A program made the translations under genes and the position numbers. A stretch of DNA of 43,368 nt from assembly GCA_902800645.1 (NCBI GenBank), contig CADCFC010000012.1, forward strand, positions 1 to 43,368, written 5' to 3'. Under the pieces are notes generated by a model that ran no database searches, was not told the DNA's origin, and worked only from the letters and a program-made list of their open reading frames with translations. Within the stretch, counting starts at the first letter, position 1. Each line of letters opens with the position of its first letter. Of this stretch, positions 3,560 through 43,368 are shown piece by piece. The stretch is from an uncultured Erysipelotrichaceae bacterium. GTDB lineage: Bacteria; Bacillota_I; Bacilli_A; RFN20; CAG-826.

Positions 3560-4847
3560 CGATCAACACTCCCATCAAATCGTAAACAAAGGCGTTTTCG
3601 ATTTTCACTTTGACGATATCTCCGTTTTGGAGTTTTCTTTTTGAAGTAAAAAATATTTTGCCGTCAACATCATCAGGAGCGTTCCAATATGAGCGTAATA
3701 AATAGTTATCGTTTTCTTTGCCAACAACGATACCTTCCATTACTTCTCCGATATGTTTTTTCGCTAAAGAATATGAGACTTTTTGTTGAGCCTTCATCAC
3801 TTTGGCTAATCTTTTCTTTTTAACCTCTTCTTCGATTTGTCCATCAAAAGAAGCAGCGGGTGTTCCTTCTTCTTGAGAATAAGTAAAAGCGCCTAAGTGA
3901 TCAAATTTAACTTCTTGAATAAAAGCAATGAGATTATCAACATCTTCCTCTGTTTCTTTTGGGAAGCCCACCATCACTGTAGTTCTTAAAACAGCGTTAG
4001 GAACTTTTTCTCTGATTTTAGCAAACAAACTTAATAAGAATTCTTTATTTCCCCTACGATACATATCTTTTAAGATATGATCTTCACTATGTTGAATCGG
4101 AACATCAAAATAAGGAGTTAGTCTTTTTTCTTTTCCGATTAACTCAATTAATTCGTCAGTAATTTCATCTGGATATAAATAAAGTAAGCGGATATATTCT
4201 AATCCATTTATTTTTAATAGCTCTTTCAATAAGTCGACAATGTTGTGTTTTTCATCTTTAAAATCAATTCCGTATTTTGTCGTGTCTTGTTCAAGAACAA
4301 CGACTTCTTTTATTCCAGCTTCTGCTAGTTCTTTTGCTTCTTTAACTATGGAAGAGAAGTCTCTAGAAACAAAACCTCCTCTAATTAAAGGAATCGCACA
4401 ATAACTACATCGATTGTCGCATCCTTCCCCAATTTTAAGATAGGCACTAAAAGGACCAGTAGAAACGATACGATATTCATCATTCACTCCAAGTGATTTA
4501 TCAATATTCTTATCTAAAAGATATAATTTCTCATTAAAATGAGAATATTCTCTAATAGGAATATATAAATCGACTTCAGGAATCTCTTTTTTAAGGTCTT
4601 CTAAATATCGCTCCGCTAAGCAGCCTGTAACAATAACTTTCTTACCGCAATTAAGCATATCTAAAATGTTTTCAATACTCTCTTTTTTGCTTTTTTCAAT
4701 AAAGCCACAAGTATTGATAACAATGATATCCGCATCGCTCGGATCGTTAGTGATTTCATAGCCGTTATAATCAAATAGGCCAAGAATATTTTCGCTATCG
4801 ACGAGATTTTTTGCGCAGCCAAGAGAAATAATACCAACTTTTTTCAT
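3552..4847 (-). CDS. rimO: Ribosomal protein uS12 methylthiotransferase RimO
   Basis: RimO is a radical-SAM enzyme with two 4Fe-4S clusters that adds a methylthio group to an aspartate of ribosomal protein S12. From MKKVGIISLG the N-terminal methylthiotransferase domain has its three cluster cysteines (Cys11, Cys47, Cys76), the radical-SAM domain has CDNRCSYC (Cys143, 147, 150) and the C-terminal TRAM domain ends the protein, about 431 residues, normal for the family. The cysteine spacing and SLGCAKN start distinguish it from MiaB. I chose ATG 4847 because homologues begin MKKVG; a GTG at 4859 in frame would add four residues but overlaps the end of the ABC transporter gene. The gene starts 4 nt after that stop and overlaps the GH3 start downstream. 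Confidence 0.93.
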   Translation of the reverse strand: MKKVGIISLGCAKNLVDSENILGLFDYNGYEITNDPSDADIIVINTCGFIEKSKKESIENILDMLNCGKKVIVTGCLAERYLEDLKKEIPEVDLYIPIREYSHFNEKLYLLDKNIDKSLGVNDEYRIVSTGPFSAYLKIGEGCDNRCSYCAIPLIRGGFVSRDFSSIVKEAKELAEAGIKEVVVLEQDTTKYGIDFKDEKHNIVDLLKELLKINGLEYIRLLYLYPDEITDELIELIGKEKRLTPYFDVPIQHSEDHILKDMYRRGNKEFLLSLFAKIREKVPNAVLRTTVMVGFPKETEEDVDNLIAFIQEVKFDHLGAFTYSQEEGTPAASFDGQIEEEVKKKRLAKVMKAQQKVSYSLAKKHIGEVMEGIVVGKENDNYLLRSYWNAPDDVDGKIFFTSKRKLQNGDIVKVKIENAFVYDLMGVLIDE

Positions 4848-42238: not shown

Positions 42239-42345
42239 TTAACGTTTGCCTTTGCTATACGGTTCTCCTAAAGATTTTGGACCGACATTTTTCTTACTTG
42301 TAAACACTAAGACAATTAAACAGACTACATAAGGCAACGCAAATC
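42239..42345 (-). pseudogene. ABC permease (nucleoside/sugar uptake), C-terminal fragment
   Basis: In the frame ending at the TAA at 42239-42241, the minus strand reads FALPYVVCLIVLVFTSKK and then NVGPKSLGEPYSKGKR. This ends as the last permease of BMP-dependent nucleoside or sugar ABC systems does (ALPYxxxLIVLxxxxxxxxPxxLGxPYxKG). Only some 35 codons remain. They follow directly, out of frame, on the BMP fragment, with no start codon. The rest of the permease, its sister permease and the ATPase are gone. Confidence 0.8.
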
Positions 42346-42705
42346 AGACTCAGTAATATCAATACCAAGAAATCTTACATCTAAATGTTTAGGAGCAACT
42401 TCGGCAATTGCTTCTCCTAAAGCAAATCCAGGACATAAAATTACATCATATCCTCTATCGATTGCTAATGTTAAAGCTTTGACGCGTTCAGCTAAAGAAA
42501 TTCCTGTAGGCTTATAATAATTAAATTTAATATTATATCTACCACACCACTCTTTAGCCCCTTCATAACAAGCCTGGTTAAAGGATTCATCATTCACATC
42601 AGAGAAATCAGTGACCATCGCAATTTTAAATTCACTATTATTTTGTCTAGACGATAATCCAATTGGTAAAACAATAGCAAAAAATATACTAATAGTAGGT
42701 GAACT
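42346..42705 (-). pseudogene. BMP-family substrate-binding lipoprotein, N-terminal fragment
   Basis: About 107 codons of a basic-membrane-protein (BmpA/Med) type nucleoside- or sugar-binding lipoprotein remain: a hydrophobic start SIFFAIVLPIGLSS, then EFKIAMVTDFSDVNDESFNQ, CYEGAKEWCGRYNIKF and RFLGIDITESDL, after which coding jumps to the permease tail. The initiating Met is missing where the tnpB C-terminus ends, and the lipobox cysteine expected after LPIGLSS is absent (Arg-Gln instead). In the BMP frame it stops at 42325. With the permease fragment this looks like the two ends of a BMP-ATPase-permease-permease operon joined by one deletion. Confidence 0.8.
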
Positions 42706-43368
42706 TACTCGGCAATTGAATAACCGAGCATCTGGGTTATGGATTGATTAATTAAATTAACCAGCTCATATCCTGTTGGGTAGTTCCTACCCGATATCCC
42801 TACATTCCCAGCTTTACCATTCCAATTAATGTAATCTTCATTTAAAAACTGGTCTGTTACAGGAATATATTCTCTAGTTGGATTTGAGAGACCTTTAAGT
42901 GGAGTTTCGAATTGATTTCCACTTATTTGTCTATAGACTCTCATAATGTTATAAGCTCCAACTGAATCTGAGTTAAAGATATAGTTATGACACTTCATTA
43001 AGCCTCTTCGTTTAGTTGAAGCTTATAAAAGAGCAAACTATAAATCTTATTAAAACAAACTACACGAATGTTTTGGTTGTAGCGGTGTTTCTCATCGTTA
43101 TTAACAAATTCTTTTTTAACATTGAGTAGTCCAGAAAGATCTCCAACAATAACTCTTGAAATATCATTAGATAAACAGTAATCAATAATCATTTTAGTCG
43201 CACGGTGAAGAATCAAATTTATTCTTCTATTTTTTAAGTTAAATAAATGTTTTATTTGTTTAGTTGCTTCTCCTTTCTTATGATTTGGATAACATTTATC
43301 AAACTTCGACTGATAATAAGCAATCTTTTTAGAAAAGTAATAATTAGTGTTTAACAAAGATTGACCTG
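42705..43368 (-). pseudogene. tnpB: tnpB (IS200/IS605 or IS607 type RNA-guided nuclease), broken and partial
   Basis: The C-terminal half of a TnpB protein, running off the right edge. One frame (43368-42998) has NTNYYFSKKIAYYQSKF, LHRATKMIIDYCL and SRVIVGDLSGLL, reaching LLFYKLQLNEEA and a stop; the second (42998-42705; in frame from STKRRGLMK before its ATG) has CHNYIFNSDSVGAYNIMR with the RuvC-III Asp and a long C-terminal tail. Between LFYKLQ and STKRRG the usual segment with YTS..CS.CG is missing, so about 25 codons plus a frame were lost. Position EDL, which holds the RuvC-II Glu in ISDra2-type TnpB, reads GDL. The encoded enzyme is very probably dead. No IS end or omegaRNA scaffold is evident. 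Confidence 0.8.

Follow-up and report, generated by a model that had tools for sequence, protein, structure and literature searches.

Probable early decay of a BMP/PnrA-type ABC importer operon through an IS200/IS605 insertion and an apparently independent loss of about 4.3 kb

The window analyzed here, which is the whole of contig C12 (43,368 bases) in a draft genome of 1.306 Mb, 60 contigs and an estimated completeness of ~90%, very probably carries a dead four-gene operon for a BMP/PnrA-type ABC importer in early decay, brought about by an IS200/IS605 insertion and a separate deletion of ~4.3 kb. Only parts of the operon's first and last genes are retained. The first part, at 42341..42698 on the minus strand, is the remnant of a gene for a BMP/PnrA-type substrate-binding protein, which matches PF02608 (E = 1.4e-10; 41.1 bits against a cut-off of 24.1) and shares 62-75% identity with the genes of 17 relatives. 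By tblastn it corresponds to residues ~11-129 of ~371, or ~119 codons, more than the 107 codons counted in the first-pass annotation, and it contains no internal stop codons. The second part, at 42239..42340 on the same strand, comprises the last 33 codons (42340-42242) and the stop codon of the second permease gene. This tail is 86% identical to residues 284-318 of the relatives' second permease (E = 8.8e-14) and, in another comparison, 91% identical to residues 286-318; taken alone, the 34-residue tail has no Pfam match. Both pieces lie at the place, on the strand and in the order first described for them. The relatives are 17 loci in named genomes (L033-L049), retrieved by searching with the BMP remnant, all from uncultured Bacilli, Erysipelotrichaceae or Bacillales; the sources of three of them are goat omasum, water deer rumen and roe deer omasum.

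The intact operon sought as a check is present in the relatives, where the points equivalent to the two ends lie ~4.3 kb apart. In 14 of the 17 related contigs, both pieces are found on one strand, in order and at about this distance. The other three (L041, L042 and L045) yielded the BMP piece alone; L041 is a contig of 3.7 kb, and in L042 and L045 the piece is located near a contig end. Six loci with listed reading frames have the remainder of the binding-protein gene between the pieces, followed by the genes for a double ATPase and two permeases, and the order binding protein-ATPase-permease-permease, stated in the first-pass annotation, is indeed seen in the relatives that were read. As a side observation, the operon's second permease is found in two overlapping pieces in another genus member, at G010:C13:29208-30162 (L078, L080), possibly owing to a frame shift, decay or sequencing error.

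The length missing from the window was taken from the 12 relatives in which our script recognized both ends (that is, all except L039, L041, L042, L045 and L048). It ranges from 4313 to 4350 bp, and is 4331 bp in five of the 12. In nine of the 12 relatives the missing length leaves a remainder of two when divided by three, which fits the shifted frame in the window. It is a multiple of three in the remaining relatives (L043, L044 and L046), in which the BMP end is worded differently, and these three count against the reading. The join between the BMP remnant and the permease tail, placed at 42340..42341 on the minus strand, is where the frame breaks, close to position 42345 given earlier for the shift. 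Past the join, the remnant frame runs into a stop within a few codons.

We then compared the bases at the join with those of the relatives. On the binding-protein side, the relatives closest in wording read GATTT followed by TCC or CCC. TATTTA or TATTTG, followed by GC, is what relatives have on the permease side, and the window reads GATTT followed by GCG. In the relatives closest in wording, a shared ATTT adjoins both ends with an offset of one base, and the most that the sequences would allow is a microhomology of 0-4 bp. Short repeats, suggested earlier as something to look for near the join, do not occur in register beyond a few bases. A repeat-mediated deletion was considered and rejected, as the sequences within 60 bases of the two ends share, in the 12 relatives, no stretch longer than 6-9 bases, and this one lies out of register. 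The join is compatible with end-joining or slippage, and the deletion probably arose by illegitimate recombination, which would have taken the ATPase and the first permease in full, together with the remaining part of the binding protein and the bulk of the second permease. We infer that it happened in one step, which is the simplest, though not a proven, reading of the ~4.3 kb.

It could be argued that the cell does have the 4.3 kb and that the assembly skipped it. The genome is a draft of 60 contigs and 90% completeness, the join sits ~1 kb from the contig end, and that end lies inside a repeated element. Nonetheless, the shared stretches of 6-9 bases, out of register, are too little for an assembler collapse, and the window contains zero N. 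Furthermore, no other contig of the draft assembly gave an orthologue-like match to what is missing. The only BMP match in the genome is the window remnant, and all that is found of the second permease is a 35-residue tail. The genome's 34 matches to the operon's ATPase reach 33% identity at best, as other ABC ATPases would be expected to do. For the first permease, the search used PF02653 alone, and the single match, on C43, adjoins a TrpX-like gene that itself scores under its model's cut-off. An assembly artefact is therefore unlikely, and a real deletion remains our preferred reading.

The remnant starts without a start codon and is preceded by the right end of an IS200/IS605 element, which abuts it at 42699/42698, and as a consequence the first nine codons of the BMP gene are missing from the window. 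The 3′ part of the element (the end of tnpB and the right end) occupies 42699..43368 on the minus strand, as determined by comparison of copies; its last base is 42699, and the contig terminates within the element. Other copies, on C5 and C47 and in G008 and G013, share common sequence up to GTTCAC, after which their flanks diverge. G008 and G013 were examined as candidates for the same insertion; the element end and a short stretch past it matched, but the flanks proved different. The exact boundary of the element was deduced from the frame of the interrupted BMP gene. The window piece scores under the cut-off of OrfB_IS605 (26.8 versus 30.5 bits), and other pieces in the genome match the family's models: tnpA on C43 scores 153.8 bits with TnpA NF033573 (cut-off 55), and tnpB on C17 scores 132.8 bits with TnpB NF040570 (cut-off 100). 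Compared with the C17 copy in the same genome, the tnpB of the window has a 100-bp deletion with a shifted frame, whose join lies at 43008..43009 on the minus strand. C47 begins exactly at the base of this join and C5 five bases earlier, as would be expected from an assembly graph that held both versions of tnpB.

Three right ends (C12, C5 and C47) and three left ends (C17, C2 and C43) of the element are found in the genome, all near contig ends. Pieces of the element family thus stand at six contig ends, and pairing them by the genes that they interrupt could link contigs. TTTAG precedes the left end in all three cases, and no target duplication was seen. The IS200/IS605 family is defined by insertion on the 3′ side of a short fixed target, which is not duplicated. 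On C17 we also noticed six neighboring open frames of 91-104 codons (L096, G000:C17, 2717-4735), which have a common leader ending in GGG or similar and varied, zinc-ribbon-like cores with paired cysteines. A seventh such frame is found at 1462-1749 of L055 (G000:C5). These frames look like candidate precursor peptides.

The other side of the insertion can be found on C43. Its left flank consists of a promoter-like TATACAAT, followed by 28 bases from a GTG (4213-4240) that end in TTTAG, and then the element; the 28 bases amount to nine codons plus one base. Aligned with the BMP gene starts of 12 of the 17 relatives, this flank scores 24-45. None of 1000 shuffles reached the C43 score for six of the 12 relatives, and 1-17 shuffles did so for the other six. 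As controls, the flanks at the left ends on C17 and C2 score 11-26, and C43 scores higher for every one of the 12 relatives. With the relatives as a guide, the C43 and window parts join in frame at codon 10 and are therefore best taken as the two halves of a single insertion. The C43 genes lying further upstream have no match in the flanks, some of them short, of the 17 relatives. The -10-like box TATACAAT is also found in six of the 12 relatives compared, besides C43 (L094, about 4198-4212), and the others have a similar sequence. It is located only ~7-9 bases before the BMP start codon, which suggests a leaderless transcript.

These results are best explained if an IS200/IS605 element landed directly behind a TTTAG in the part of the binding-protein gene that encodes the signal anchor, thereby severing the promoter and the first nine codons from the rest of the gene. 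The first-pass annotation had one event removing about 4-5 kb. A loss of 4313-4350 bp within one operon agrees with it, but the picture of a single event is incomplete: because the element also split the BMP gene after nine codons, a single clean event does not account for the state of the gene. The earlier reading was thus right in substance as to a deletion within one operon and missed the split of the BMP gene. The insertion and the 4.3-kb deletion look like separate events, and the insertion may have come first. That the two lesions share a gene and are 358 bp from each other might suggest that the element itself caused the 4.3-kb deletion. However, those 358 bp of gene stand between the element end and the start of the deletion, and the bases at the join belong to the two genes, not to the element end. 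We regard a deletion caused by the element as extremely unlikely, and favor two separate events.

The genes around the scar are still in place. A DegV-family gene (PF02645; 39739..40626, minus strand) is the downstream anchor of the locus, and between it and the permease tail lies an FAD-dependent amine-oxidoreductase-like gene (PF01593; 40744..42216, plus strand), which is outside the operon and unmatched in the five neighborhoods compared. In G002 (the L035 contig) and G006, the intact operon is followed by DegV and acyltransferase genes that share its orientation, at distances of ~4.3 and 6.4 kb. Twelve genus members were searched, five of which have BMP (G002, G003, G006, G010 and G012), and a close DegV was found only in G002 and G006.

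The median pN/pS of the remnant against 15 of the 17 relatives (leaving out L039 and L048) is 0.204 (92 codons), and that of intact-gene pairs with pS over 0.3 is 0.207 (range 0.07-0.32). With this pN/pS, which matches that of intact genes, and no stop codon inside the remnant, the loss looks recent, and the remnant was under constraint until recently. Amino acid changes unique to the window outnumber those unique to the compared relative in all 18 comparisons (5-8 versus 0-4), which are six relatives by three outgroups and mutually non-independent, and the remnant may have begun to drift. The synonymous differences between the window and the relatives are large (pS 0.56-0.93), so that no date can be given for the loss.

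The same pN/pS, together with the 140-codon frame that is open from stop to stop over the remnant, could also point to a new functional small gene. Yet the promoter and start codon that belong to the gene are on the far side of the element, and past the join only a few codons precede a stop. The excess of window-unique changes in those 18 non-independent comparisons also speaks against it. Such a gene is barely conceivable, and decay of a dead operon is the reading that we retain.

Loss of the importer is not confined to the window. Among the 18 other genomes of the genus compared for BMP and the second permease, nine have a BMP match and ten a second-permease match (G007 has the permease only). 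Neither was matched in eight of the 18, five of which are at least 90% complete. Three of these eight (G011, G004 and G008) were read at the DegV locus. G011 (85% complete) has a worn permease tail of ~19 codons at 9513-9578 of L117 (G011:C54), adjoining a 116-codon gene of the kind located upstream of BMP in L036 and L047. This tail is supported by blastn (E = 1e-5) and by a local score of 48, where 1000 shuffles reached 34 at most. G011 has no BMP remnant, so its deletion ends differ from those of the window, most simply through an independent loss. In G004 and G008 no credible operon scar was found at the DegV locus. The G011 scar and the lack of operon matches in eight of the 18 genomes suggest that the importer is dispensable in this group.

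It is very unlikely that the importer was lost repeatedly in the genus because its loss helps, beyond plentiful substrate, for example by removing a binding protein on which a hypothetical phage or mobile element docks. If so, the window and G011 would represent two independent escapes. A nucleoside-binding surface lipoprotein is reported to be linked to the uptake of a conjugative element in mycoplasmas (PMC12892991). Our preferred reading is ordinary gene decay, well resolved and unsurprising. It offers a clean example of how a nutrient importer is lost, by a mobile-element hit and a deletion with the neighbors still in place, and leaves general views unchanged.

With regard to known systems, the BMP/PnrA-type ABC importer operon is recognized from the gene order in the relatives, from PF02608 and from matches of the L033 binding protein to solved structures (Lbp 7x0r, 4.6e-28; lipoproteins 6yab and 6y9u, ~5e-17; tmpC 2fqw, 4e-13), of which 2fqw is also named PnrA. 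The putative B6-transporter models of NCBIfam are the best for the ATPase and the permeases, yet these score far under the cut-off. Proteins of the Lbp, BMP and tmpC types are reported to bind nucleosides, and the substrate of the importer is probably a nucleoside, judging from family membership. The window differs from this system in having two fragments only, and the relatives differ in that their N-termini have no lipoprotein cysteine. The label of lipoprotein given at first is not supported: in the N-termini of 15 of the 17 relatives, read by eye, no lipoprotein-signal cysteine is found between the start and the mature part. An automatic flag for such a cysteine in four of the 15 (L033, L037, L038 and L045) was rejected as the product of wrong start assignment. 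The mobile element resembles IS200/IS605 insertion sequences in the TnpA and TnpB of the genome's other pieces, in TTTAG before the left end and in the absence of duplication, whereas the window copy differs in its 100-bp tnpB deletion. Deletion-scar pseudogenes are a known kind in reducing bacterial genomes. The window resembles them, with no essential difference, in that the two ends of one operon are fused and the rest is gone, and the sister species G011 shows another scar of the same operon.
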